Shown: positions 24,513-38,079 of the stretch, one piece after another | How positions within the stretch are numbered: the stretch's first letter is position 1 | Layout of the letters: each line of letters begins with the position of its first letter | Source of the DNA: Pigmentiphaga sp. NML080357 | Lineage (GTDB): Bacteria > Pseudomonadota > Gammaproteobacteria > Burkholderiales > Burkholderiaceae_B | NCBI RefSeq assembly: GCF_002188465.1 | Contig: NZ_NINW01000014.1 | Span: 1-38,079, forward strand | Length of the DNA: 38,079 nucleotides | Direction of reading: 5' to 3' | Translations under genes and position numbers: made by a program | Notes under the pieces: generated by a model | What the model was told of the DNA's origin: nothing | Databases searched by the model: none | The model's input: the letters and a program-made list of their open reading frames with translations, nothing else

Positions 24513-25062
24513 CGCCACTGCCCGTCGCGCCGGCTCCGCCGGCCCTGATGAACCGCCCATCAAGTATCCTGTGCTTAACGAAACGCAGCTGTGCTCGAGG
24601 TGGAACCTCTCGCCCAAGACGCTGCAACGCTGGCGCTCGGAAGGCATCGGCCCGCCCGCATGGCACATCAACAGGTCTGTCCGCTACCTCCTGATGGAAG
24701 TCGAGGCCTTCGAGCGCAAGGCGCGGGTGACATGGAAATCCAGTGCGGGACGCGCCCTGTCCGAATCTTCGCCCACAGCGCGTGAAGACGCCATCGAGCA
24801 GATGATGCAGCAGCGGCCCGCTCGGCGTGACCAGATTTTCTACTCGTGCAAGGCCGTGGCCGACATCACTGGACTACCTGTCTACTGGTTTCAACAGGAT
24901 CAGGAACGCCAGCGACGTGGCATTCCTTGCTACATCCTAACCAGCGGTGGCGTCATCCGTTTCAGTATCGAAGAAGTCTTCTGCTGGGAGGTGCACCACC
25001 TGCGTCCGTGCCGCAGCGATGCGGGCACGTCCGTCGATGCACTTCAGTCCGCCAGCTCGTAG
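24496..25062 (+). CDS. Tandem helix-turn-helix protein, paralogue of the preceding gene
   Basis: A 188-residue protein. Residues 30-75 (NETQLCSRWNLSPKTLQRWR, then GIGPPAWHINRSVRYLLMEV) repeat the fold of the upstream protein. A second related module at about 110-165 contains VADITGLPVYWFQQDQERQR and a VIRFSIEEVFCWEV end. Two DNA-recognition modules suggest binding to a composite site. It starts inside the preceding gene, so the two are probably made together. The last 19 bp overlap the convergent Fic gene. The function is inferred from the fold only. Confidence 0.7.
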   Translation: MKPKADATARRAGSAGPDEPPIKYPVLNETQLCSRWNLSPKTLQRWRSEGIGPPAWHINRSVRYLLMEVEAFERKARVTWKSSAGRALSESSPTAREDAIEQMMQQRPARRDQIFYSCKAVADITGLPVYWFQQDQERQRRGIPCYILTSGGVIRFSIEEVFCWEVHHLRPCRSDAGTSVDALQSASS

Positions 25063-26159
25063 CCGGTGCTGCGCCCGCCGCCCGGTGATTTTTTCAACAC
25101 GCCTTGGTCCAGCAACTGCGTGATGTCGCGCAGCGCGGTGTCTGGCGAGCACTTGGCGATGGCGGCCCACTTGCTGCTCGTGAGCTTGCCCTCGAAGCCG
25201 TCGAGCAGGCGGTTGAGCAGTTTCACTTGCCGCTCGTTCAACGACAGGCCCGCCCAGCGTTGCCAGAAGCGTGCTTTGACTAGCACGGCGTCCAGCGTGG
25301 ACTGCGCGCTGGCGACCGCGCGCCCGAGTGTGCCGAGAAACCACGACAGCCAGCCGGTGGCGTCGAGCGTGCCCTTCTGCGTGCGCTCCAGCACGTCATA
25401 GTAGTCGCGGCGCTCGCGCTGGATCTGGGCCGACAGGCTGTAGAAGCGTTGCGGGCTGCCATCGGCGCGCGCCAGGAACAGGTCGCCCACGGCGCGGGCG
25501 ATGCGGCCGTTGCCGTCGTCGAAGGGGTGCAGCGTCACGAACCACAGATGCGCCAGCCCGGCCTTGATGAGTGCGGGCTCGCCCGTTTCCTCGTTGGCCC
25601 ATGCCAAAAACCGCGCCGTCTCGGTGGGCAGCACGTCGGCGGGCGGTGCCTGGAAGTGAACCTTGCGCCGCCCCACCGGACCGGAAACCACCTGCATCGG
25701 CCCGGCCGCATCGTCGCGCCAATGCCCCACGGTGAGCCTGTTCATGCCCGAGTACCCGGTTGGGAACAGGGCCGCGTGCCAGCCGAACAGGCGCTCGGCG
25801 GTCAGTGGGAAGGCGGCGCGCGAAGTAGCGTCGAGCACCATCTCCACGACGCCTTCGATGTGCCGATCCACCGGGGCGACCGCGCCAATGTCCACGCCCA
25901 GACGGCGAGCAATCGAGGAACGCACCGATTCGACGTTCAGCACTTCCCCTTCGATTTCGCTGGTCTTGACCACGTCCTCGGTCAGCGCGGCGAGGCTGGC
26001 CTGATCGCGCAGCGTCATGCCCACGTCGGCCAGACGGCCCAGCAGCACGCCCTGGGCGCGGCTGACCTCGGTCAACGGCCCAGTGAGCACCGACAGGTCG
26101 TAGCGCCAGTTGGGCCAGTCTTCGGCCTGCCAGATGTAGAGTTTTTCTCCGCTTTCCAT
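25044..26159 (-). CDS. Fic-family protein with N-terminal inhibitory helix
   Basis: Fic enzymes usually transfer AMP to target proteins. The active-site motif HPFDDGNGRIAR is complete at 211-222 (His 211 catalytic). The inhibitory motif (S/T)xxxE(G/N) is TSEIEG at 66-71, making this a self-inhibited class II Fic. The N-terminus (YIWQAEDWPNWRYDL) is the DUF4172-type domain. A C-terminal winged helix (about 315-370, SSKWAAIAKCSPDTALRDI) could bind DNA. I chose ATG 26159; GTG 26174 is possible. It is transcribed against the helix-turn-helix pair and overlaps its end. A short palindrome lies upstream. Confidence 0.9.
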   Translation of the reverse strand: MESGEKLYIWQAEDWPNWRYDLSVLTGPLTEVSRAQGVLLGRLADVGMTLRDQASLAALTEDVVKTSEIEGEVLNVESVRSSIARRLGVDIGAVAPVDRHIEGVVEMVLDATSRAAFPLTAERLFGWHAALFPTGYSGMNRLTVGHWRDDAAGPMQVVSGPVGRRKVHFQAPPADVLPTETARFLAWANEETGEPALIKAGLAHLWFVTLHPFDDGNGRIARAVGDLFLARADGSPQRFYSLSAQIQRERRDYYDVLERTQKGTLDATGWLSWFLGTLGRAVASAQSTLDAVLVKARFWQRWAGLSLNERQVKLLNRLLDGFEGKLTSSKWAAIAKCSPDTALRDITQLLDQGVLKKSPGGGRSTGYELAD

Positions 26160-26202
26160 GCGGAGATTAAACACCTTATTCGCCGCAAAGGCAAGAGATT
26201 AA

Positions 26203-26217
26203 CCGCACAAAGTGCGG
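26203..26217. promoter_or_regulatory. Palindromic operator candidate upstream of the Fic gene
   Basis: CCGCACAAAGTGCGG is a 15-bp palindrome (6-bp arms, 3-bp centre) about 44 bp before the Fic start. The nearby words GAGATTAA at 26163 and 26196 form a direct repeat. Since Fic has its own winged helix, autoregulation is plausible but unproven. Confidence 0.45.
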
Positions 26218-26347
26218 AGAATGAAGATGCCAATCGCCGCATCGGTCGAGCGCGTCGTGCCAGATGTTCCTGATTCTCAACGTGATGCGTCCCAGCATGG
26301 AAGTGGTCGCCCACGGGTGACGTCGCTGCCGCCTTGGAGGCGTGGGA

Positions 26348-26406
26348 TTCTCTTTGGTTTAAAAATTTGGTAGAATATTGGTCGTTTTAAACTAAACCCA
26401 AGGAGG
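26348..26406 (+). promoter_or_regulatory. Promoter and operator of the XRE/ImmA gene
   Basis: TTCTCT (26348-26353) and TAGAAT (26371-26376) lie 17 bp apart. The inverted repeat GTTTAAAA (26357-26364) and TTTTAAAC (26385-26392) brackets the -10 box, as expected for repression by the encoded XRE protein. The ribosome-binding site AAGGAGG ends 4 bp before ATG 26411. Confidence 0.6.
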
Positions 26407-26410
26407 CGTC

Positions 26411-27490
26411 ATGATTGCAGATCGCATTCGTCAAGCACGATTGGCGGCAGGTCTGACCCTGGGTGCCTTGGGTGAACAGGTGGGTGTTTCTCACACCGCC
26501 ATCCAGAAGTACGAGAAGGGTCTTCTGACCCCCTCATCGTCTCAGCTGCTCAAGCTGGCCCGTGCCTGCGGCATCCGGACCGAGTACTTCTTCCGCACGC
26601 ATACAGTCGAACTGCTGCAGCCCGAGTTCCGCAAGCTCTCGACCTTTGGCAAGACGGCGCAGGATGCGCTGAAGATTAAGGTCGTCGAGTTGGTGGAAAA
26701 ACGCGTGGAGTTGCTCGGTGCCTTTCCCGAACTACCGTTCCCGGCGTTTGCACCTCCCGCTAACCTGCCTGAACACGTCGCTTCGTTGGATGAGATCGAC
26801 GGGTTCTCGGATACGGTTCGCAACGCTTGGCTGTTGGGCATGAACCCGATTGCTGACCTCACCGACACCCTCGAAGGGCTTGGCCTGCTGGTCATCGTGG
26901 TCGATGAAGGGAATCCTGGGTTCTCTGGCTTGACGGCCAAGGCGCGAACCGAAGATGGCCGGGAGTATCCGGTCGTGGCTGTCTCCAAGCGCTGGCCCGG
27001 TGATCGCCAACGGTTCACCCTTGCGCATGAACTGGGGCACCTGCTGCTCGAAGGACGACTGGCTGACGGCATCGACGAAGAGAAAGCCTGCGACCGTTTC
27101 GCTGGTGCATTCTTGGCCCCGCGTGTCGCAGTACTTCAGTTGCTCGGGGAGCAACGCCATGCGCTGGAATGGCAAGAGCTCTATGTGCTCAAACATGAAT
27201 TTGGCCTATCGATGTCCGGATGGCTGCAGCGCGCCAAACAGTGTGGCGTGATCACCGAGGCCGCCCACCTTTCGATGGTCAAGCGGTTTTCGGCAAAGGG
27301 CTGGCGCAAGAACGAGCCGGGCGATCCGCTGCCGCAAGAGCATCCACGACTGTTTGATCAGTTGGTGTACCGCGCCTTGGCCGAACAATACATTTCGGAG
27401 GGCAAGGCGGCGGAACTGCTGGGCATCCCGATGATGCGCTTCCACAAAGAACGCCAGTTGGAGTCATCGGATGCGGTTGCTCATCAGTGA
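26411..27490 (+). CDS. XRE-family regulator with ImmA/IrrE metallopeptidase domain
   Basis: A 359-residue protein. An N-terminal lambda-repressor-type helix-turn-helix (about 5-60, LTLGALGEQVGVSHTAIQKY) is followed by an ImmA/IrrE peptidase domain with the zinc motif FTLAHELGHLLL (HELGH at 206-210). Proteins of this COG2856 type pair with a downstream toxin and act as antitoxin and repressor. In ICEBs1, ImmA cleaves a repressor. The last 20 bp overlap the PIN-domain gene, a classic toxin-antitoxin arrangement. The palindrome around its own promoter supports autoregulation. Confidence 0.9.
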   Translation: MIADRIRQARLAAGLTLGALGEQVGVSHTAIQKYEKGLLTPSSSQLLKLARACGIRTEYFFRTHTVELLQPEFRKLSTFGKTAQDALKIKVVELVEKRVELLGAFPELPFPAFAPPANLPEHVASLDEIDGFSDTVRNAWLLGMNPIADLTDTLEGLGLLVIVVDEGNPGFSGLTAKARTEDGREYPVVAVSKRWPGDRQRFTLAHELGHLLLEGRLADGIDEEKACDRFAGAFLAPRVAVLQLLGEQRHALEWQELYVLKHEFGLSMSGWLQRAKQCGVITEAAHLSMVKRFSAKGWRKNEPGDPLPQEHPRLFDQLVYRALAEQYISEGKAAELLGIPMMRFHKERQLESSDAVAHQ

Positions 27491-27980: not shown

Positions 27981-28062
27981 CCACCCCTTCATAAGGCAGC
28001 CGCTTCGTCCCCTTCGCCACGGTCAGTGGCGGTCTCCATACGGACCTTCCATGGAGACCACG

Positions 28063-28533
28063 ATGACCACCCGACTTTGCGCGCACTGCGGCCACCCCTT
28101 CGAACCCCGCCCGCAAGTTCCCGACCAAGCCTTCTGTTCCGCACCCGACTGCCAACGCGCCCGTAAGCGCCGGTGGCAGCGGGCCAAGCTCCAGTCCGAT
28201 CCCGACTACCGGATCAACCAGCGCGCCGCGCAGCAGGCGTGGTCGCAGCGCCATCAGGACTACTGGCGCAACTACCGCGATTCCCGGCCCGAATACGCAC
28301 AACGCAACCGCGAGCAGCAGCGGTCGCGGGACCAGGGCCGAAACGGGGATCTTGCAAAGATGGACGCGTGCGACCTGCCGAGCGGCCTGTACCGCATCAC
28401 GCTGCATCCGGCATTGCCGAGGGAAAACGGCGACTCGTGGGTCGTCGAGATCACGCCGGTCTGCGTGACGTGTCCGTGCAAGATGGACGTGTCAAGAGAG
28501 GACGTGATCGACGCCTCGTCGATTCGCCCGTAA
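28063..28533 (+). CDS. Cys-rich zinc-finger-like protein of the element
   Basis: A 156-residue protein from ATG 28063, chosen because GGAG lies 7 bp upstream; an in-frame ATG at 28051 lacks a ribosome-binding site. The N-terminus has C6, C9, C25 and C30 (LCAHCG, then AFCSAPDCQ), a probable zinc ribbon. A very basic, Gln/Arg-rich helix (about 33-90) follows, and a CVTCPC cluster near the end. It could bind nucleic acid. It lies directly before the recombinase block and I cannot assign a function. Confidence 0.6.
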   Translation: MTTRLCAHCGHPFEPRPQVPDQAFCSAPDCQRARKRRWQRAKLQSDPDYRINQRAAQQAWSQRHQDYWRNYRDSRPEYAQRNREQQRSRDQGRNGDLAKMDACDLPSGLYRITLHPALPRENGDSWVVEITPVCVTCPCKMDVSREDVIDASSIRP

Positions 28534-28671
28534 CTTTGCTTCCAAAACGGGTTCTCTCGAACATCCTGCATGGCAACGATTCCAACCGTGTGCGTTGCCG
28601 CCGTGCGGCGGCGGCGTGTCCATTGAAGGGGCGGCAGACCCGAGATCGCCAATCACGGAGTGACCGGGTCT

Positions 28672-30231
28672 ATGCAATCGAACGAATCGCCTATAAGTCC
28701 GCCGGGGCCGGTGTTCCGCGCCGCGCAGTACGTGCGCATGTCCACCGAGCACCAGCAATACTCGACGGAGAACCAGGCCGACAAAATTCGCGAGTACGCC
28801 GCCCGGCGCAACATCGAGATCGTCCGCACCTACGCCGACGAGGGCAAGAGCGGTCTGCGCATCGACGGTCGGCAGGCGCTCCAGCAACTGATCGGCGACG
28901 TCCAGGCAGGCAAGGCCGACTTCCAGATCATCCTCGTCTACGACGTGAGCCGCTGGGGCCGGTTCCAGGACGCCGACGAAAGCGCCTACTACGAATACAT
29001 CTGCCGCCGCGCCGGAATTCAGGTCGCCTACTGCGCCGAGCAGTTCGAGAACGACGGCTCGCCGGTGTCCACCATCGTCAAAGGCGTCAAACGTGCAATG
29101 GCGGGCGAATACAGCCGCGAGCTTTCGGCCAAGGTGTTCGCCGGACAGTGCCGCCTGATCGAACTCGGATTCCGCCAAGGCGGGCCAGCGGGCTACGGTC
29201 TGCGACGCGTGCTGATCGACCAGTCCGGTGCGGTGAAGGGGCAGCTTTCGCGTGGTGAGCACAAGAGCCTGCAAACCGACCGCGTGATCCTGCAGCCCGG
29301 CCCGGACGAGGAAGTGGCGGTCGTGAACCAGATCTACCGCTGGTTCGTCGAGGACGGCCTGTTCGAATCCGAGATCGCCGACCGGCTCAACACCCGCGGC
29401 ATTCGGACCGACCTCGGGCGCGACTGGACGCGGGCCACGGTGCGCGAGGTGTTGTCCAACGAGAAATACATCGGCAACAACGTCTACAACAGGCGCTCCT
29501 TCAAGCTCAAGAAGGTGCGCGTGGTGAACCGCCCGGAGATGTGGATCAAGAAGGAAGGCGCGTTCGAGGGCATCGTGCCGCCCGAGCTGTTCTACACGGC
29601 GCAAGGCATCCTGCGCGAACGCGCCCACCGCTTCAGCAACGAGGAACTGATCGAGAAGCTGCGGCGGCTCTTCCAGCAGCACGGCTACCTGTCCGGCCTG
29701 ATCATCGACGAGTCCGAGGGGATGCCGTCGGCGGCTGCCTACGCGCACCGCTTCGGCAGCCTGATCCGCGCCTACCAGACGGTGGGCTTCACGCCGGATC
29801 GGGACTACCAGTATCTGGAGGTCAACCAGTTCCTGCGCCGCCTCCACCCGGAGATCGTCGGCCAAACCGAGCGGATGATCGCCGATGTCGGCGGCGCGGT
29901 CGCGCGCGATCCGGCGACCGACCTGCTCACGGTCAACCGCGAGTTCACCGTCTCGCTGGTGCTCTCGCGCTGCCAGTTGCTGGACAACGACCGCCGCCGC
30001 TGGAAGGTGCGCTTCGATACCAGCCTGACGCCCGACATCACGGTCGCCGTGCGTCTGGATGACAGCAATCAGGCTGCGTTGGACTACTACTTGCTGCCGC
30101 GTTTGGACTTCGGCCAGCCGCGCATTCACCTGGCCGATCACAACGGCCTCGAATTCGAGAGCTACCGCTTCGACAGCCTGGACTACCTCTACGGCATGGC
30201 CGAGCGCAGCCGTCTGAGGAGAGTCGCATGA
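28672..30231 (+). CDS. Large serine recombinase
   Basis: A 519-residue site-specific recombinase. The N-terminal resolvase domain has the nucleophile Ser 24 in QYVRMSTEHQQYSTENQ and VYDVSRWGRFQDAD further on. It is followed by a recombinase domain (PAGYGLRR, ATVREVLSNEKYIGNNVYN). The usual zinc ribbon and long coiled coil are not obvious. The C-terminal 200 residues are specific to this group. It should catalyse integration or excision of the element. The start is ATG 28672 or GTG 28660. The stop overlaps the next start as ATGA, so it is translated together with two ParB-like proteins. Confidence 0.92.
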   Translation: MQSNESPISPPGPVFRAAQYVRMSTEHQQYSTENQADKIREYAARRNIEIVRTYADEGKSGLRIDGRQALQQLIGDVQAGKADFQIILVYDVSRWGRFQDADESAYYEYICRRAGIQVAYCAEQFENDGSPVSTIVKGVKRAMAGEYSRELSAKVFAGQCRLIELGFRQGGPAGYGLRRVLIDQSGAVKGQLSRGEHKSLQTDRVILQPGPDEEVAVVNQIYRWFVEDGLFESEIADRLNTRGIRTDLGRDWTRATVREVLSNEKYIGNNVYNRRSFKLKKVRVVNRPEMWIKKEGAFEGIVPPELFYTAQGILRERAHRFSNEELIEKLRRLFQQHGYLSGLIIDESEGMPSAAAYAHRFGSLIRAYQTVGFTPDRDYQYLEVNQFLRRLHPEIVGQTERMIADVGGAVARDPATDLLTVNREFTVSLVLSRCQLLDNDRRRWKVRFDTSLTPDITVAVRLDDSNQAALDYYLLPRLDFGQPRIHLADHNGLEFESYRFDSLDYLYGMAERSRLRRVA

Positions 30232-31127
30232 GCAAAATGCACCACGCCACCGAGCTGCAGATGATCCCGGTCGATCAGATCGCGGTGCTCAACCCACGCG
30301 ACCGCAACGGCCGCGTGTTCGAGGAGATCGTCGGCAACATCAAGAACGTCGGTCTGAAGAAGCCGGTCACGGTCACGCCGCGCGACGATCTCGAAGACGG
30401 CAAACGCTACCTGCTGATCTGCGGTGAGGGACGGCTCAAGGCTTTCAAGTCGCTCGGCGAGAGAGAGATTCCGGCACTGGTGGTGCGGGTCAATGACGAA
30501 GACGCCTTCATCATGAGCCTGACCGAGAACATCGCCCGCAGGAAATACAGTGCGCTGGAACTGCTGATGAGCATCGAGCAGTTGAGCCAACAGGGCTACG
30601 ACAAGCGCGTCATCGCCCAGAAGACCGGCCTGAGTCTCGACTACATCAAAGGCATCCTGCTCCTCTTCGAAAAGAGCGAGGAACGCCTGCTGGCCGCCGT
30701 CGAGGCCGGAAGGATTCCGCTCAACGTCGCCATCACCATCGCGGGCGCAAGCGACGAAGAAGCGGTGCAGGCCGCGTTGCAGGACGCCTACGAAAGCGGC
30801 CAACTGCGCGGCGGGCAACTGATGCAGGCGCGTCGCGTGCTTCAGCGGCGCAGCAGCTTGGGCAAAACGCTGGCCCACCGGCCCACGCGCAAGGGAGCGT
30901 CCGTCACCACCTCCAGCCTGGTGCGCAACTACCAGCACGAGGTCGAGCGGCAGAAGCTGATGGTCAAGAAGGCCGAATTCACCCAGCAGCGCCTGCTGTT
31001 CGTGATCGAGGCGCTGCGCCAGTTGCTGGCCGACGAGCATTTCTCCAACCTGCTGCGCGCCGAAGGACTGGACACCTTGCCCAAGCAACTGGCCGAGCGC
31101 GTCTGGGCTGGAGGTCACGCGGCATGA
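30228..31127 (+). CDS. ParB/RepB-like protein, first of two
   Basis: A 299-residue protein with a ParB N-terminal fold. PVDQIAVLNPRDRN is followed by a box-II-like GEGRLKAFKSLG (66-77, in place of GERR) and TENIARRKYSALELL (99-113). Next comes a helix-turn-helix (VIAQKTGLSLDYIKGILLL) and a C-terminal helical region. ParB proteins usually load on parS and partner with ParA, but no ParA is present. It is coupled on both sides by ATGA overlaps. A role in DNA bridging or in directing the recombinase is possible. Confidence 0.85.
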   Translation: MSKMHHATELQMIPVDQIAVLNPRDRNGRVFEEIVGNIKNVGLKKPVTVTPRDDLEDGKRYLLICGEGRLKAFKSLGEREIPALVVRVNDEDAFIMSLTENIARRKYSALELLMSIEQLSQQGYDKRVIAQKTGLSLDYIKGILLLFEKSEERLLAAVEAGRIPLNVAITIAGASDEEAVQAALQDAYESGQLRGGQLMQARRVLQRRSSLGKTLAHRPTRKGASVTTSSLVRNYQHEVERQKLMVKKAEFTQQRLLFVIEALRQLLADEHFSNLLRAEGLDTLPKQLAERVWAGGHAA

Positions 31128-32008
31128 GCCGCCCGCCGTTGGGGTTCATCCCAGAACCGATCACGCTTGCGCTGGATCGGATTCTGCCGTCGCGCAAGAC
31201 GCCGGAGGGCTTGAATACGTCGCGAAAGTTCAAGCAGATCATGGCCTCGATGGAAGCAGTCGGACTGATCGAACCCTTGAGCGTGGGCAAGGCCGATAAG
31301 GCCACCGGCCAGCACATCCTGCTCGACGGGCACATGCGCCTGCTGGCGCTGCGGCAGCTCGGCTACGTCGACGCACCGTGCCTGGTCGCTACCGACGACG
31401 AAAGCTACACCTACAACAACCGGATCAACCGCATCTCGTCCATTCAGGAGCACCACATGCTTCGGCGAGCAGTCGAGCGTGGCGTTTCGCCCGAGCGGCT
31501 GGCCAAGGCGCTGAACGTGGACATCAGCCAGATCCACAAGAAGGTGAGCCTGCTCGAAGGCATCTGCCCGGAGGCGGTCGAGATGCTGAAGGATCAGCAC
31601 TTCTCTGCCAACCTCGGTTCGGTGCTGCGCAAACTCAAACCCACCCGGCAGGTCGAGTGCGTGGAGCTGATGCTCACTGCCAACAACATGACGGTCGCCT
31701 ACGCCGAAGCCCTGCTTGCGGCCACGCCGCCGCACCTGCTGGTCAGCGAGAAGCGGCCTCGGAAGCTGCCCGGCGTCACGGCGGAACAGATGGTGAAGAT
31801 GGAGCGCGAGATGGGAAACATCCAAGGGCAACTGAAGCTGGTCGAAAAGTCCTACGGTCAGGACGTGCTACTCCTGGTCCTGGCACGCGGCTACCTCGGC
31901 AAGCTGATCGACAACAAGGCGGTGTTCCGTTTTCTGTCGCAGCGCCAGCCTGACGTGCTGGCCGAGTTCGAGAACATCATCCAGACCGTGGCGCTGGACG
32001 GAAAGTGA
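31124..32008 (+). CDS. ParB/RepB-like protein, second of two
   Basis: A 294-residue relative of the preceding protein. The ParB-type core reads GLIEPLSVGK, ILLDGHMRLLALRQLG (65-80) and NRINRISSIQEHHML (99-113). A helix-turn-helix (LAKALNVDISQIHKKVSLL) and a RepB-like C-terminal domain follow. In the first box GEGR is replaced by DGHMR, so any CTPase activity is doubtful. It starts in the ATGA overlap with the first ParB-like gene, and the next gene begins directly after its stop. Two different ParB-like proteins with a recombinase suggest a nucleoprotein complex on the element ends. Confidence 0.85.
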   Translation: MSRPPLGFIPEPITLALDRILPSRKTPEGLNTSRKFKQIMASMEAVGLIEPLSVGKADKATGQHILLDGHMRLLALRQLGYVDAPCLVATDDESYTYNNRINRISSIQEHHMLRRAVERGVSPERLAKALNVDISQIHKKVSLLEGICPEAVEMLKDQHFSANLGSVLRKLKPTRQVECVELMLTANNMTVAYAEALLAATPPHLLVSEKRPRKLPGVTAEQMVKMEREMGNIQGQLKLVEKSYGQDVLLLVLARGYLGKLIDNKAVFRFLSQRQPDVLAEFENIIQTVALDGK

Positions 32009-33373
32009 ATGCGACGGATCGGCGATGCTATTCACCGACCGCACGCCACATCACCGCCGGACGATGCCGATGACGGCGGAGAGGCGGCGATGGTCGCGCA
32101 TCGCAATGCGCCCGTGGCCGATCCGGCGTGCCTGTATGGCCTGATCGGCGACGTGGCCCATGCCGGCAGCGAAGGCACGGAAACCAATGCAGTCGCCATC
32201 GCCGCCAACTTCACGGCCTATCTGTCCTGCGCGGTCGGGCGCGGCGTGTACCTGCCTGTCGGCAACACCCGCCACCACGCGCGGCTGTTCTGCTTGCACG
32301 TCGGGCGCTCGGGCCGTGGCCGCAAGGGCGACGCGGTGTCACTGGTGCTGCGCATCGATCAGGCGCTGCGCGCGATGGACGAAGGCTTCGCGCCGCAGAT
32401 TCATCGCGGCGGCCTGTCCAGCCGCGAAGGGTTGGTGGCATTGATGCACGACGGCTACCGGCAAGGCCGCCTGGACGTTCCTGCCATCGAGGACAAGCGG
32501 CTGTGGGTGGTCGAATCCGAGTTCGCCAACGTGCTGCATCAGGGACGGCGCGACGGCAACACGCTGTCGGCGGCGCTGCGCGATTGTTGGGATGGCGTCG
32601 ATCTCAAGCCCGCCACCAAGTCGAATCGACTTTACGCCAGCCACCCGCACGTCTGCTTGAGCGGCGCGATCTCGCCCAGCGAATTGACGGTCCTGATGAG
32701 CGCGCGCGAACTCACCAACGGCTTCGCCAACCGCTTCCTGATGATCTGGGCCGAACGCACGCGGATGCTGCCGTTCCCGAAGGAGACGCCGCAGGCGGTG
32801 GTGGAGCATCTGGCGCGCAGGACGCTCGAGGTGTTGGCCTTCGTTCGTGCCAATCGGCACGACCAGCGCGACCACCTGCGGATGGAGCTCTCGCCGCAGG
32901 CGCAATGGCGCTACGCCCAGCTCTACCGGGGCGAACTGAACGACGATTTCGGCGACGGAGCAGTCGGAGCGTTGCTGGAGCGCCGCGCCCCGATGCTGCT
33001 ACGGCTGGCGATGCTGATGGCGCTGACCGATCTGCAAACCCGCATCGATGCCCAGCACATCGACGCGGCGACGGCATGGATTCGCCACGCCACGGCATCC
33101 GTGCGCTTCGTGTTCGTCAGCGCCACCGAGGAGGCGAAGCTGGCGCAGGTGCTGGAACTGTCGAGCCGCGTGCTGGCTTTCCTCCGCGAGCGTGGTCAGG
33201 CCACGCGCAGCCAGATCAGCGCGGAATGCTTTCGGGGCAAGGTGACCAAGACGCGGATCGACGCCAGCCTGGAGCACCTGTTGGCCAGCACGCCGCCGAA
33301 GATCAGTGTGCAGTGGGTCGAGCGGCCAGCCGACGCGCCGGGCGCGCCAACGCGGGTGTACCGGCCCGCGTAG
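32009..33373 (+). CDS. YfjI/DUF3987-like protein
   Basis: A 454-residue protein matching the YfjI/DUF3987 group found on plasmids and islands. Recognisable pieces are TNAVAIAANFTAYLSCAVGR, VVESEFANVLHQGRRDGNTL, PHVCLSGAISPSELTVLM and GFANRFLMIWAERT. In the P-loop region there is HVGRSGRGRKGDA (98-110), in which the usual GKS/T is GRKGD, so ATP binding may be altered. The C-terminal 80 residues look like a winged helix. Such proteins are thought to be helicase or replication related. The ATG directly follows the stop of the second ParB-like gene. Confidence 0.78.
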   Translation: MRRIGDAIHRPHATSPPDDADDGGEAAMVAHRNAPVADPACLYGLIGDVAHAGSEGTETNAVAIAANFTAYLSCAVGRGVYLPVGNTRHHARLFCLHVGRSGRGRKGDAVSLVLRIDQALRAMDEGFAPQIHRGGLSSREGLVALMHDGYRQGRLDVPAIEDKRLWVVESEFANVLHQGRRDGNTLSAALRDCWDGVDLKPATKSNRLYASHPHVCLSGAISPSELTVLMSARELTNGFANRFLMIWAERTRMLPFPKETPQAVVEHLARRTLEVLAFVRANRHDQRDHLRMELSPQAQWRYAQLYRGELNDDFGDGAVGALLERRAPMLLRLAMLMALTDLQTRIDAQHIDAATAWIRHATASVRFVFVSATEEAKLAQVLELSSRVLAFLRERGQATRSQISAECFRGKVTKTRIDASLEHLLASTPPKISVQWVERPADAPGAPTRVYRPA

Positions 33374-33381
33374 CGGTGAAG

Positions 33382-33452
33382 CTCATTTCGCTCGTTTCGT
33401 CGCATCGAACCGCCCGCAAGTGCTTGTCGGCCTTCTCATTTCGCTCATTTCG
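33382..33452. repeat. Two tandem pairs of a 9-bp repeat, CTC(A/G)TTTCG
   Basis: Copies lie at 33382-33390, 33391-33399, 33435-33443 and 33444-33452; three are CTCATTTCG and one CTCGTTTCG. The two pairs start 53 bp apart (about five helical turns). They sit in the 154-bp gap between the YfjI-like gene and the convergent methyltransferase gene. They could be binding sites for the ParB-like proteins or the recombinase. I see no terminator here. Confidence 0.55.
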
Positions 33453-33527
33453 CGGCCCACTTGCGCTCTTCGGCTCGGGCGGGCATAAAGTGAGCGGTGG
33501 GAAGCTCAAGGCAACCCGGGCCACAGG

Positions 33528-34634
33528 CTATTGTCTGGTCGCCCAAACGTCGTACTCGACCATTGGTTTGGACTTGGTGCGCAGGAAGGCATCTGCCTGG
33601 CGCTTGCCTTCAGTGGCGGAGCCTGCCTCCCTGATCGTGGTGATGCGCCAGCCGCTGTCACCGAGAGAACTCTTGATGAGGTCCAGCGGGTCGGCGCGCC
33701 TGTCCGTGATGCCGCCGAATCGAATGACCATTCTTGCATCATCGGCGCACACTTCTTCCGCGTTCCGCCACACCCGGCGCAAATCAGCTGCGAAGTCCTC
33801 GGGACTGGAATGTACGACCTGATCGCGATTGCTGTAGTCAACAGCGTCGGGACCGCCGACGAACCAGTTGCGCAGCCACTGGTCGGGAATGTAGGTCCGC
33901 ATCCCGTAGTACGGCGGCGAGGTGATCACCCAGTCGAACCGAGTGTCCGCAGTGTCCGGGTGGAGCGCTCCCGCCTCACGGCTGTCTGCCAATCGCACGG
34001 CGCCCGTGATGTCGGAAGACGTTCCGAAGTAGCGCTTCGCCCGGCGTTCGATCACGGCCAGCACGTCGATAGGCTCGGGCGCAAGCCCCCGCCCTTGCCA
34101 GAAGCGTGTCGCATAGGCCGGCTTGGGAGCGTAGGTGCGAGGGCATTGGTTGGAGAAGTAGCTCGGGAAGGTCTTCTGCTTCGGGCCATGCAGGGCGCCC
34201 AGCACAATGCCGCGGAGCGCGATGCGCGCGTCCGTGGCGCAGTCCTCCAGAAATGCCTCCCGGAACCGACACAGCGAATCCAGCACGGTGGAGTGAAATG
34301 CCCATTGCCAAAACTCACCTGTCGGGATGCGGTGCGCTTCACGTTCGGTCAGAATCTTGCGCGCTTCGGCAAGGATGTCTTCGACGGTGGCTGTCGCGAG
34401 CTTGGAGGCCGTAATGGCTGCGGCAACCGGACTGGAATCCACCCCAAGGGAACGGAGGCCGACCAGACGCGCCGCGAAATTGGTGGTGCCCCGGCCACAG
34501 AATGGATCAAGCACGACATCGCCCGCGCGCGCTTTCCGCTGCAGTATGTTCAGCGGGAATTCGAGCGGGAACATCGTGAAGTACGGACAAATTCCATTCA
34601 GGGCGGTATCGCCACGCTGAAAGTTAACGGTCAT
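33528..34634 (-). CDS. Amino-type DNA methyltransferase of a NurA-HerA operon
   Basis: A 368-residue SAM-dependent methyltransferase. The SAM motif DPFCGRGTT is at 43-51 and the catalytic motif ITSPPYYGMRTY at 237-248. TSPPY indicates transfer to an exocyclic amino group (N4-cytosine or N6-adenine). The SAM motif precedes the catalytic motif, the reverse of the usual beta-class order, with about 190 residues between that may include target recognition. The start is ATG 34634, overlapping the HerA stop (ATGA); the open frame further upstream lies inside HerA. In a mobile island beside nuclease and ATPase genes it may mark self DNA. Confidence 0.88.
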   Translation of the reverse strand: MTVNFQRGDTALNGICPYFTMFPLEFPLNILQRKARAGDVVLDPFCGRGTTNFAARLVGLRSLGVDSSPVAAAITASKLATATVEDILAEARKILTEREAHRIPTGEFWQWAFHSTVLDSLCRFREAFLEDCATDARIALRGIVLGALHGPKQKTFPSYFSNQCPRTYAPKPAYATRFWQGRGLAPEPIDVLAVIERRAKRYFGTSSDITGAVRLADSREAGALHPDTADTRFDWVITSPPYYGMRTYIPDQWLRNWFVGGPDAVDYSNRDQVVHSSPEDFAADLRRVWRNAEEVCADDARMVIRFGGITDRRADPLDLIKSSLGDSGWRITTIREAGSATEGKRQADAFLRTKSKPMVEYDVWATRQ

Positions 34635-36739
34635 TTTCTGACTCTTATCCACGTCTTTCCCGTGCCTGGGTTCTTGAAGGTCTCCCACGCTGTGGGTTGT
34701 GGTCCAAACACTGCGTTCATGGCCTTCGAGACCAAGTTGTACGCAAACTGACGGCGGTCCTCCAAATGCTCCGGCAAGTGGTCGATAAGGAACTGTTGAA
34801 CCCCATACCATGGCATGCCATTTTGGGATTCGAGTTTCTGGCGAAGATCGTCGTTTCCCTGCAGAGCTTCGATAGCGCGCCGCTCAATGGCCGCCATGAC
34901 ATCCACGGACTCGGCTTCTTCATGCTCCGTCTCCGCTGGAAACAAGCCGCCGGTGCCCTCGGCTTCCGGGACACGGGCCGCCATCCGCCTCATCCCGGAG
35001 AAAGTGCTGCGCAAGGTTTGCGCATAGGTATTGCCCGCAGGCTGGTTGTAGTCATGATCGCGCATCGAGAACATCTTCTCGAAGGACAAGGCGCGAAGGC
35101 TGACCGGGTAAGGCTTGCCTCCCACCGAGCTCCAAAACACACCCTGGCCCGGGATGGGCTCATTGAGTAGCGAGCTCAGCAAGTCGTCGCTGAAATGGGC
35201 ATTGGCCCGTTTCAGTGACGTGAGATCCGCTGCCGACAGCAGATGGAAGATGAACCAATTGTCGCCCTGGCTGAGAATCTCGACAGGGATGCTGCCCGGC
35301 TGCTGGGTAATCAACAGCGCGCCGAGGTCGTATTTGCGGCCCTCCTTCACCCAAGCGACGTAGGGCTCGGCAGCGGGGGCGTTCTCGTTCAGCACCGACT
35401 GCGCTTCTTCGACGACGGCAATCGTCGGAATCGTCTTCGGGTCGGCTGCGGTGAATTCCTGTTGGTTGCGGTCGAAGATCCGGCGAAGGATCAACCCCGA
35501 TAGCACCAATGACTGACCGCCACGCATCTGGGACACGTCGATGACGCACAGCTTCCCCTCGGACAACGCGTGAACCAGCATGTCCATGAGCTGGCTGCTC
35601 TTGTCATGCAGCATCTTCACGATCGCTGTCATGTTGCCTCGGGCCGCCAAGGCCTCGGCCTCTTGCCGCTGGGGGTCAAGGTCGAGCAGCCCACAGATGT
35701 CGTCCAGCGGCGTGGTATTCCCGTTGGTGTCGATCAGGTTGACCAGCGACTCCCACCGGTCTTGCGGAAGACCGCGTAGCTTGCGAACGTTCTGCTGCTC
35801 CTGGCGCTCGGGTCCGAGCGCGATCGAGATCACATCGCCTGGGCGCAAGCGCCGGATGTCCAGTTTGATGCCGCCCGCCACGAACGACTGATAGAAGGGG
35901 CTCGGATTCCTCCTGTCCGTAAAGACGACAACCTTGTCCTCCAGCGCCGGGACATCGCAGAGGCCTGGGCGGCCTTTGTCATCGGGCCAGAAATACTCGC
36001 CATCCGGATCGAAGATCACCGTGCCTACAGGAACTTGCTTGCCGGCACGCTTGGTGACGAATGGTGTCGTCTCGTAGAGCTTCGAGAAAAGCAGCTTGTT
36101 GAGATTGGACTTGCCGAAGCCCGCGCGGGCAAAGATGAAGCTGCGGCGAGACACAAGCGACTCGATGGGGAAGCGGACCAGCACCTCCGGGTCTACGACC
36201 TGCATCCATTCCTGCGATTGAAAGGACTTGCTGCCCGCGGCGTAGATGTACTCGCCGAAGGCGAGATGACCGATGGGAGCTCCGTCGATGTTGTGGCCTG
36301 CGATCTCGCGCAGCACTTCGTCACTCGGGAAGGCCACCTTGCTGCCTACGTGGGGAAGCCGGCGATGCGAGGGGACGAACGTCAGCCCCTTGCCATTCTT
36401 TCGCAGCACGCCCAGCACGCGAATGTTGACCCGGTACTTGAGGTATTGCTCGCGCAGGTCCTCTGGGATCGGCCGCTCCTCGCGGACTGCGCGGATATTG
36501 AATTCCTCGCCGGAGCCGAAAGACAGTTTGCCCTCCGAGGAGAAGGAGGCGATGCGTCCCAGCACGGCCTCATCGGGCGTCTCCAATTGGACGAGGAGGA
36601 ACTGCCCGTGCATCGGGATGTTCTGGAACTCGTTTCGGTACGGCAACACCAGGTCGGCGTGGAACTCCATGCCGCCTTGCTGGAAGCCCCGGAAGATGCC
36701 GACGACCTGCTCCCTGGGAAAGAGTTGAATTTCTGCCAT
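34631..36739 (-). CDS. HerA-like ATPase/translocase
   Basis: A 702-residue protein. An N-terminal HAS-barrel-like region (VVGIFRGFQQGG..., about 10-85) is followed by a RecA-fold motor with Walker A ARAGFGKSN (204-212), Walker B TIAVVEEAQ (439-447) and LLITQQPGSIP (476-486) near the sensor. HerA forms hexameric rings that move on double-stranded DNA and partner with NurA, whose gene is 11 bp upstream. Residues beyond about 600 are acidic and helical and may be partner specific. The end overlaps the methyltransferase start. It is longer than archaeal HerA (about 500-600). Confidence 0.9.
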   Translation of the reverse strand: MAEIQLFPREQVVGIFRGFQQGGMEFHADLVLPYRNEFQNIPMHGQFLLVQLETPDEAVLGRIASFSSEGKLSFGSGEEFNIRAVREERPIPEDLREQYLKYRVNIRVLGVLRKNGKGLTFVPSHRRLPHVGSKVAFPSDEVLREIAGHNIDGAPIGHLAFGEYIYAAGSKSFQSQEWMQVVDPEVLVRFPIESLVSRRSFIFARAGFGKSNLNKLLFSKLYETTPFVTKRAGKQVPVGTVIFDPDGEYFWPDDKGRPGLCDVPALEDKVVVFTDRRNPSPFYQSFVAGGIKLDIRRLRPGDVISIALGPERQEQQNVRKLRGLPQDRWESLVNLIDTNGNTTPLDDICGLLDLDPQRQEAEALAARGNMTAIVKMLHDKSSQLMDMLVHALSEGKLCVIDVSQMRGGQSLVLSGLILRRIFDRNQQEFTAADPKTIPTIAVVEEAQSVLNENAPAAEPYVAWVKEGRKYDLGALLITQQPGSIPVEILSQGDNWFIFHLLSAADLTSLKRANAHFSDDLLSSLLNEPIPGQGVFWSSVGGKPYPVSLRALSFEKMFSMRDHDYNQPAGNTYAQTLRSTFSGMRRMAARVPEAEGTGGLFPAETEHEEAESVDVMAAIERRAIEALQGNDDLRQKLESQNGMPWYGVQQFLIDHLPEHLEDRRQFAYNLVSKAMNAVFGPQPTAWETFKNPGTGKTWIRVRK

Positions 36740-36750
36740 GTTGCGCTTCC

Positions 36751-37893
36751 TTATCCGTACCGGCGTTGGGCTGGGTCAGCGTCCTGTAGCTGAAACGCGT
36801 CCAGGGTCCCGGCGTCACCGCCAAGACTCGATCGCACACCTTCGTAAATGAAGTCCTGCAGGATGTCGAAATCGAAATCGACCAGGGCGGCGTTTTCATG
36901 GGCCTTCTGCAGGCAGCGCGGATAGTGCGGCACCGGAAAGCCGTTGATCGCGTCGGCCAGCATCGAACCGAGGATGGTCTGAGCATCGCCAACCTGGGGC
37001 ACAAAGACGTCAACCGGCCACACCGGGTCACGTCGGTGCGACCCAAACTTCACCAAGAACATCTTGCCGCCGACAAACTTGTTGGTCTCCCCGCCGTCGT
37101 CAGCGCGGTCATCTCCTCGCGCAAACTCCGACCAGACGTAGGCCTTCTCCTCCACTTCACGCGGCACTTCCACGTAGGCCGGGTAGTCGGTTTGAAGCAC
37201 GCCTTCCAGGGCCATGGCGAGCCGATACCGTGAAAGCACCTTGCTGTGCTTGGCCACACCAGCGAGGTACACCCGACGACGGCTCTTGTTCCACTGCGCG
37301 TCGATGCGCTCCTTCATGCCTTGGAGCAGCCGCTGGAACCGATCCTTGGCGAAGACCTTGCTGCGCAGCAGGCCGTCGCAAACGATCAAGGTATCGGTGC
37401 CAAAGTCTTTCTTCAGGATCGCGAACAAGATGGCCCACTCGACCAGCTCCCGGTAGACCTGCACCCAGCTGGGAGAGACCGGCTTGCCCTTGTCGGTCGG
37501 CCGAATCATGTGAGAGAGCGCCGGCAGGTTGTTGACGCCCAGAAAGGCCATCATCTCGCCCAAGGCTGTGCGTGCCGACCCGTCCGCCGCAAACTGACGC
37601 TCATTGAGCTTCTGAACCGGCGTGGTGGGCGAGACGGCCTCCAGGCAGTACTCGTTGTTGCTGCTGTCCACCACCCGGACCAGCTGGATCAGAAAGGGGT
37701 CGAACTGGAGCTGGTTGTTTCCGCCATCGGTGCCGACCAGCGAGATGGACGTCGTCGCGCGCGGCTGAATGCGGCGTGTGGCGCTTTTCAGCGGGCGAAT
37801 CTCTTCCCGCAGCGCATCCAGCACCCCTTGGTCGGTGCCGATGCAGTCCGCGATGGCCTCCTTCAGTTGGGCCTGGCTTGCCGGGTCGATCAT
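36751..37893 (-). CDS. NurA-family nuclease
   Basis: A 380-residue RNase H-fold nuclease of the NurA group. The conserved pieces are LVGTDGGNN with D56, LIVCDGLLRSK with D173, AGVAKHSKVL with K215, and the C-terminal PHYPRCLQKAHENA with Y324 and H332. NurA digests DNA ends with HerA. ATG 37893 is chosen because AGGAGG lies 4 bp upstream; the longer frame begins with TTG. It is the first gene of the nurA-herA-methyltransferase operon. Only about 60 bp separate it from an IS5-type element, so its promoter is short or partly supplied by the IS. Confidence 0.9.
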   Translation of the reverse strand: MIDPASQAQLKEAIADCIGTDQGVLDALREEIRPLKSATRRIQPRATTSISLVGTDGGNNQLQFDPFLIQLVRVVDSSNNEYCLEAVSPTTPVQKLNERQFAADGSARTALGEMMAFLGVNNLPALSHMIRPTDKGKPVSPSWVQVYRELVEWAILFAILKKDFGTDTLIVCDGLLRSKVFAKDRFQRLLQGMKERIDAQWNKSRRRVYLAGVAKHSKVLSRYRLAMALEGVLQTDYPAYVEVPREVEEKAYVWSEFARGDDRADDGGETNKFVGGKMFLVKFGSHRRDPVWPVDVFVPQVGDAQTILGSMLADAINGFPVPHYPRCLQKAHENAALVDFDFDILQDFIYEGVRSSLGGDAGTLDAFQLQDADPAQRRYG

Positions 37894-37954
37894 CCCCCCT
37901 CCTGCCAAGTAAATCGGTTAGCTGTTCAAGATTGCACGATTTTGCCGTATCCTA

Positions 37955-38079
37955 GGGCGTGTTCACACTATCTAAGCCCATCAACGATGAGCGCGAAATT
38001 GATGAAGGCAATGAACATCACATCCAGCTTGTCGAATCGCGAGAATATGCGCCGGAAGCCTTTGAGGCGCCGGAACAGT
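37955..38079 (-). mobile_element. IS5-family element (IS427-like), terminal part
   Basis: The sequence from about 37955, GGGCGTGTTCACACTAT, resembles an IS5/IS427-group end, and CTA directly before it would fit the short target duplication of that group. Most of the element lies beyond the window. Confidence 0.65.
37968..38079 (-). CDS. IS5-family transposase, C-terminal end only
   Basis: The minus strand from the window edge reads LFRRLKGFRRIFSRFDKLD, then VMFIAFINFALIVDGLR, and stops at TAG (37968-37970). This is the familiar C-terminus of IS5/IS427-type transposases (second open frame). The rest of the gene is outside the window. Confidence 0.8.
   Translation of the reverse strand, partial: LFRRLKGFRRIFSRFDKLDVMFIAFINFALIVDGLR

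Follow-up and report, generated by a model that had tools for sequence, protein, structure and literature searches.

In the genome of Pigmentiphaga sp. NML080357, a HerA-type DNA pump and a NurA-like nuclease resembling TdpA and TdpB are paired in one operon with a DNA methylase. The resulting module, a methyl counterpart of the phosphorothioate system TdpABC, probably restricts unmethylated DNA. The three gene families recur together across many phyla, beyond chance. The window analysed was one whole contig of 38,079 bases from the 5.73-Mb genome.

Gene organization and protein families of the operon

The NurA-like, HerA and methylase genes lie consecutively on the minus strand. A check of the open reading frames of the window confirmed the positions given in the first-pass annotation of this DNA, the 11-bp gap between the NurA-like and HerA reading frames (36740-36750) and the overlap of the methylase start with the HerA stop (ATGA). 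The operon and its surroundings comprise the following features.

28050..37955, no strand: 9.9-kb unit with recombinase, two ParB/RepB proteins, 454-aa protein and the trio (DNA comparison with L013 and L081)
28660..30231, plus strand: large serine recombinase with Resolvase and Recombinase domains (Pfam)
30228..31127, plus strand: ParB_N/RepB protein (Pfam), in the shared 9.9-kb unit
31124..32008, plus strand: RepB-family protein (Pfam), in the shared 9.9-kb unit
32009..33373, plus strand: 454-aa protein, no match in the Pfam scan, convergent to the methylase
33528..34634, minus strand: amino-type DNA methylase, 368 aa, motif I DPFCGRGTT preceding motif IV TSPPYYG
34631..36739, minus strand: HerA-family (TdpA-like) DNA translocase, 702 aa, Walker A and B intact
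36751..37893, minus strand: NurA-like (TdpB-like) nuclease, 380 aa from ATG, D56 and D173 invariant
37955..38079, no strand: end of a repeated element with 12 identical places in the genome including this one; the contig stops inside the element

The catalytic residues and motifs named earlier were also recovered. The nuclease residues D56 and D173 are present and show no variation across an alignment of NurA relatives that includes the window (53 of 53). Walker A (GFGKSN, residues 207-212) and Walker B (VVEEAQ, 442-447) of HerA are intact, both methylase motifs are present, and the letters G-GKS, EE, D56/D173, D-P-C-G-R-G-T and SPPY are invariant in 50 of 50 full trios. All three genes are under purifying selection, with dN/dS values of 0.02-0.10 against three relatives.

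For the nuclease, no Pfam family was found at 1e-3 in the scan of the window proteins, the Pfam NurA cut-off was not reached (14.6 of 21 bits), and no family was returned by NCBIfam. PF09376 (NurA) was matched at E up to 1 by 25 of 53 nuclease relatives, the best at 6.3e-5. Since the nuclease falls below the Pfam NurA cut-off, the NurA assignment rests on a structure model together with the TdpB and NurA matches. The model was built from 53 sequences (pLDDT 86.5, pTM 0.84); a first model from 5 sequences had been discarded (pLDDT 47). Among solved structures, Foldseek placed TdpB as the best match of the model (E 5.6e-12 and 2.2e-11, TM 0.65/0.68), followed by Sulfolobus NurA (E 1.2e-6), and nothing further passed 1e-3. 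The 53-row sequence profile matched TdpB at 6.6e-4, with about 20% identity. As modelled, the nuclease has the TdpB/NurA fold. A NurA 90% identical to that of the window is present in Desulfacinum infernum.

The motor matched Pfam DUF87 at 3.9e-18. Its profile aligned with TdpA at 2.4e-21 in two stretches including GFGKSN and KEGRKY, with archaeal HerA at 5.6e-12 and with other HerA-type ATPases from 3.1e-10 down; about 140 aa at its C-terminus lie outside the TdpA-aligned part. Judged by these profile matches, the motor is a TdpA-like HerA, and nuclease and motor are placed with the TdpAB kind because both match TdpB/TdpA better than archaeal NurA/HerA. In the comparison with PADLOC that had been proposed earlier, 0 families were obtained for the nuclease, and the motor was matched only partially by the HerA and mad8 models (best 57.6 bits). 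The NCBIfam matches of HerA and methylase were all below cut-off.

The third gene was identified from its sequence as a DNA methylase by Pfam N6_N4_Mtase (1e-14). Compared by sequence with solved structures, its best match is a putative modification methylase (1.2e-11); the next two, at 2.1e-4 and 2.2e-4, carry the name cytosine-N4 methylase. The SPPY motif, too, points to N4-cytosine as a possible target.

TdpABC is a phosphorothioate-based phage defence of Thermus in which TdpC adds the phosphorothioates that protect DNA from TdpAB. TdpA (HerA-type) and TdpB (NurA-fold) are the nearest solved relatives of the window motor and nuclease by profile and fold matches, a relationship missing from the related systems listed in the first-pass annotation, and in both modules a DNA modification gene completes the set. 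The modification gene is TdpC there and a DNA methylase here, and the window HerA has 702 aa with an extra C-terminal part, compared with 586 aa for TdpA. A Pfam scan of 30 proteins of the window revealed no sulfur-transfer family; the absence of TdpC was judged by Pfam families, and 186 bp of contig lie upstream of the operon.

HerA-type ATPases or methylases also belong to the antiphage modules SIR2-HerA, HerA-DUF4297, DndFGH, MADS, DISARM and BREX-related capture systems. The window differs from these by its NurA-fold nuclease, for which PADLOC gave no family; where SIR2-HerA and HerA-DUF4297 have a SIR2 or DUF4297 effector, the partner here shows the NurA/TdpB fold, and Pfam matched it to neither. 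The occurrence of such ATPases or methylases in antiphage modules is likewise described in two reports (PMC10853773, PMC12839542). Classic type II restriction-modification has a site-specific endonuclease beside the methylase; here the NurA-like nuclease was the only one found in that place. A defence system made of this trio was not found in the literature searched; an earlier mention in Iyer et al. 2004 or in papers on TdpABC is possible.

Linkage of the three families and exchange of the methylase

A HerA search of 61 related genomes gave matches in 6, five of them strong (76-100% identity, window's own included), and in 0 of 10 other genomes of the same genus. The four strong outside relatives are 82-88% identical to the window in NurA and 76-90% in HerA, but merely 45-59% in the methylase, which lies upstream on the same strand in two (once with an intervening gene), downstream convergent in one and downstream on the same strand in one. 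A scan of one genome per species yielded 79 loci, three of which repeat the strong outside relatives. Testable loci, those with HerA and flanks of 1.5 kb or more on each side, numbered 56 of 79, and the methylase family was found within the fetched stretch in 44 of these 56, a count that includes L023 (methylase about 9 kb away) and the fragmented L028 and takes the near-identical L013 and L081 apart. With L024 and L036, whose contigs carry the methylase some 15 kb upstream, the count rises to 46 of 56. Over all 79 loci the methylase was placed downstream on the same strand (34), downstream convergent (13), upstream on the same strand (4) or divergent (1), and none was seen in 27. All 34 downstream same-strand methylases overlap HerA or lie at most 20 bp away, taking the longest open reading frames.

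At the level of genomes, a NurA search of 300 genomes from the window's order was positive in 8. The methylase was detected at E up to 1e-20 in 14 of 300, ten of them above 500 bits, including all 8 NurA genomes. A methylase above 500 bits therefore occurs in 8 of 8 NurA genomes versus 2 of 292 others (6 of 292 at E 1e-20; Fisher p 3e-14, with the four weaker methylase matches counted as negatives). Of these weaker matches, the one in G196 is a fragment of 99 residues located at a contig edge, and the one in G219 comes from a second clade described below. The two genomes above 500 bits without NurA are G100, in which a HerA fragment at a contig edge adjoins the methylase, and G154, in which the methylase lies by a 1,415-aa AAA helicase next to phage-like genes. 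The conserved co-occurrence that the earlier annotation had named as a check is thus borne out at both levels.

Ten testable loci remain. In four of them (L042, L047, L049 and L051) the NurA-HerA frames are open, and no family methylase was found genome-wide at E 1e-10; 8 of their neighbour proteins were scanned with Pfam. Decay as a general account of methylase-less loci was set aside: the trio-locus genes of L029 and L080, two more of the ten, are split into pieces, but those of the first four are not, split genes also occur in the methylase-bearing L028, L046, L061 and L083, the cases are too few, and assembly errors can split genes. Methylases of other kinds were seen at a few loci, among them the last four of the ten. 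A D12-class methylase convergent to HerA is present in L089, and in L084 by a similar ORF, a helicase and an N6-type methylase lie downstream in L066, and HsdM genes stand at the cut contig end of L025. The D12 methylase of L089 (with the similar ORF of L084) and a beta-type methylase of L045 are possible alternative partners. HsdM had also been considered as an exchanged partner in L025 and L036; it was dropped as evidence of exchange, the HsdM genes of L036 being part of a complete type I system with a family methylase further upstream.

Pairwise identities were compared over 50 full trios, counting the window and leaving out three duplicate records; they correlate at 0.96 between NurA and HerA and at about 0.70 between the methylase and either. 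In comparison with the window, L023 has 93% identity in NurA and 92% in HerA versus 46% in the methylase, and L010 has 88% and 83% versus 46%; the L023 methylase is 72-75% identical to those of L009 and L010. In a 67-row tree, made by a quick method with SH-aLRT support only, the methylases of L009, L010, L023 and L118-L120 group with helicase-paired methylases, well supported and apart from the window's group. A helicase of about 1,415 aa lies nearby in L023 and L118-L120, whereas L009 and L010 are without it. The methylase has been swapped with hardly any change in motor and nuclease, which is read as modular exchange. The possibility that the methyltransferase partner varies at random, named earlier as a finding that would speak against the proposal, is borne out in part: the variation is strong, and the partners are mostly branches of one methylase family, other classes lying beside few loci.

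Mobility and defence surroundings

At the DNA level the unit at 28050-37955 is 97.8% identical to its counterparts in Cupriavidus cauae (L013) and Pandoraea nosoerga (L081), whose 21-kb loci are 99.5% identical across genera, and the serine recombinase adjoins the trio also in L013, L081 and L020. The 9.9-kb unit has moved between genera by horizontal transfer. About 61 bp separate the NurA ATG from the upstream repeated element with 12 identical genome places, whose end may alter the operon promoter. The 454-aa protein (32009-33373) is kept at 94-95% beside the trio in L013, L081 and L020.

Neighbours of the relatives include type I and III restriction genes, GmrSD, DISARM DrmD, Tiamat TmtA and SIR2. 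Defence neighbours were counted with 17 neighbour proteins as queries, each query's own locus being left out. Overall, 19 of 75 loci had a match and 56 had none (four duplicates dropped; 49 loci of at least 14 kb plus 26 short ones, with uneven flanks). The defence-island enrichment proposed earlier as a check was seen in the long loci, 15 of 49 versus 0 of 20 arbitrary 20-kb stretches, at a p of 0.003 that is indicative because the queries came from these same neighbourhoods and the controls from the window's order alone.

Two further observations concern gene surroundings. At 25044-27490 the window encodes a Fic/DUF4172 protein and an HTH/M78 peptidase protein, the latter matching PADLOC RmrA at 2.2e-45. 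In L118, L119 and L023, 9-15 kb of variable defence genes lie between an upstream methylase and NurA-HerA, which look like the bookends of a cargo site.

Proposed function and alternative explanations

We consider it probable that the operon is a restriction-modification-like defence module, in which a TdpAB-like pump-nuclease is guarded by base methylation. In a plausible mechanism, the methylase would mark host DNA at a short motif, and six HerA and two NurA subunits would assemble into a ring, load on double-stranded DNA and pump it to the NurA dimer, where both strands would be cut. Methylated DNA would not be loaded, or would stall the motor; host DNA would thereby escape, and phage or plasmid DNA lacking the mark would be destroyed. 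This would be the logic of TdpABC with base methylation replacing backbone sulfur. Sequence specificity would reside in the methylase alone, which would allow a change of methylase with no change in motor or nuclease. A HerA-NurA of six plus two subunits that cuts both strands of double-stranded DNA is described for T. kodakarensis (PMC12977600).

The restriction-like reading of the first-pass annotation is favoured by the family linkage, the defence neighbours, the horizontal transfer and the kinship with TdpAB; its statement that it knew of no described system with this exact gene trio has to be corrected. The same gene order was published in 2017 for ICEth1 of Thermus thermophilus as a DNA-donation operon (PMC5365140), so the arrangement is not undescribed, although it was reported with another function. 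The operon TTC1877-TTC1880 encodes a type IIG enzyme, a NurA-family nuclease of 377 aa, the HerA/FtsK ATPase TdtA of 568 aa and a 410-aa N4/N6 methylase (PF01555) overlapping tdtA by 4 bp (PMC5365140). TdtA and NurA are needed for DNA donation, their mutants losing most or all of it (PMC5365140, PMC7767461), while the methylase has minor effects (PMC7767461). Compared by arrangement, the likeness lies in the nuclease-ATPase-methylase order and the 4-bp overlap; the ICEth1 operon differs in its shorter TdtA, in the type IIG enzyme at its head and in its donation role.

These data make DNA donation or element transfer the strongest rival: the HerA ring would export DNA, NurA would trim it and the methylase would be ancillary. 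The shared gene order, the donation mutants and the serine recombinase and ParB/RepB genes of the window unit speak for it. We regard it as unlikely, given that no relaxase, type IV secretion or competence family was found among 30 window proteins scanned, that the relatives stand amid varied restriction and defence genes, and that the methylase linkage is strong for an ancillary gene. Restriction and donation may coexist, since both need a double-stranded DNA pump with a nuclease. DNA repair by end resection, with the methylase adjoining by chance or for regulation, would fit the NurA and HerA folds and their pairing, and Deinococcus HerA-NurA reportedly acts in recombination, as told in PMC12977600. 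The window pair is, however, nearer to TdpAB than to the archaeal and Deinococcus repair HerA-NurA, its nuclease stays below the Pfam NurA cut-off, it is mobile, linked to a methylase and patchy (8/300 order genomes, 0/10 of the same genus), and no Rad50/Mre11 family was found among the 30 proteins, which leaves repair very improbable.

The restriction reading has to face NurA-HerA loci in which no methylase was found (L042, L047, L049, L051), the pairing of the methylase family also with the helicase of about 1,415 aa, a DruA-linked NurA-HerA pair without a methylase, and the ICEth1 arrangement, which serves donation with a methylase of little weight. Much of this would suit an antiphage effector triggered by phage independently of methylation, like SIR2-HerA or HerA-DUF4297, with the methylase belonging to other systems of the island. 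The DruA (Druantia) gene lies directly upstream of a divergent NurA-HerA pair at L167:5754-10200, the one match beyond the centre genome among 396 genomes of another phylum, and no methylase-profile match was found within 17 kb of it. On the other side, 34 of 79 loci have a downstream same-strand methylase that overlaps HerA or lies no more than 20 bp from it, L010 and L012 have a methylase without the helicase in their 19.5 kb, and a second clade repeats the trio. We accordingly give a methylation-independent effector little probability and prefer the methylation-guarded module.

In the second deep clade (L111, L113, L115), HerA, a protein of 443-473 aa and a methylase homologous to that of the window stand side by side, the L113 methylase on the opposite strand. 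The middle protein matches Pfam NurA in two of three (8.4e-15 and 7.7e-6) and has no NurA match in L115, whose methylase is 31% identical to that of the window over 270 residues. Compared by hhalign, the NurA profiles of this clade and of the window's clade show a weak match (probability 52%, E 1.4e-4). Clade II NurA was found in 0 of 398 genomes of a phylum sample, possibly with the three known carriers outside it, and so is not common.

The methylase family also adjoins the AAA_11/12 helicase of about 1,415 aa without NurA-HerA, in G154, two rhizobial plasmids and 9 of 17 viral contigs. Helicase-methylase loci are L118:11533-15801, L119:11270-15526, L120:10484-14740, L121, L128-L135, L139 and L140; the pairs are convergent, except in L121 where they are in tandem, and lie at prophage-like ends, on the two rhizobial plasmids and in islands. 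Methylase and helicase are possibly a second restriction-like module, and in L011, L023, L024 and L036 the methylase may serve the helicase, since these loci have both helicase and NurA-HerA. A wider and more tentative reading, which we hold possible and would not yet favour, is a modular class of restriction. An exchangeable methylase would be the sole specificity and a sequence-blind ring pump-nuclease would read the mark while translocating. One methylase family would serve at least two unrelated effectors (HerA-NurA and the AAA helicase), HerA-NurA would be paired in two deep clades, and the Thermus donation operon would be a member in other use. If the methylation-guarded reading is true, modification-guarded ring pump-nucleases extend from phosphorothioate to ordinary base methylation in many phyla, and a methylase swap alone should reprogram the system. 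The trio is a direct test case for the role of bacterial HerA-NurA in repair, DNA donation or restriction, and for whether a sequence-blind translocating nuclease tells self from non-self by a methyl mark.

Among viral contigs 17 methylase loci were found. A pattern scan detected no NurA in them, though L126 carries the full trio, and a HerA scan found the contig of L126 alone. Orphan phage methylases as counter-defence by a stolen mark were considered and rejected: L126 is a full trio, L124 has a HerA fragment beside the methylase, and 9 of 17 (L121, L128-L135, two alike) lie beside the helicase or a cut piece of it. On plasmid pAt1 of Allochromatium tepidum (L138:9001-10107), a methylase 87% identical to that of the window lies among insertion-sequence genes, with no NurA or HerA annotated within 9 kb; this single orphan proves nothing on counter-defence. 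In the plasmid collection tblastn detected no NurA, and a TdpB fragment gave no match. At L115:6056-19351 the clade II HerA-NurA-methylase genes precede three genes that resemble those of Zorya: one product matches MotA/ExbB weakly, one has an OmpA domain and one is an SMC-like ATPase.
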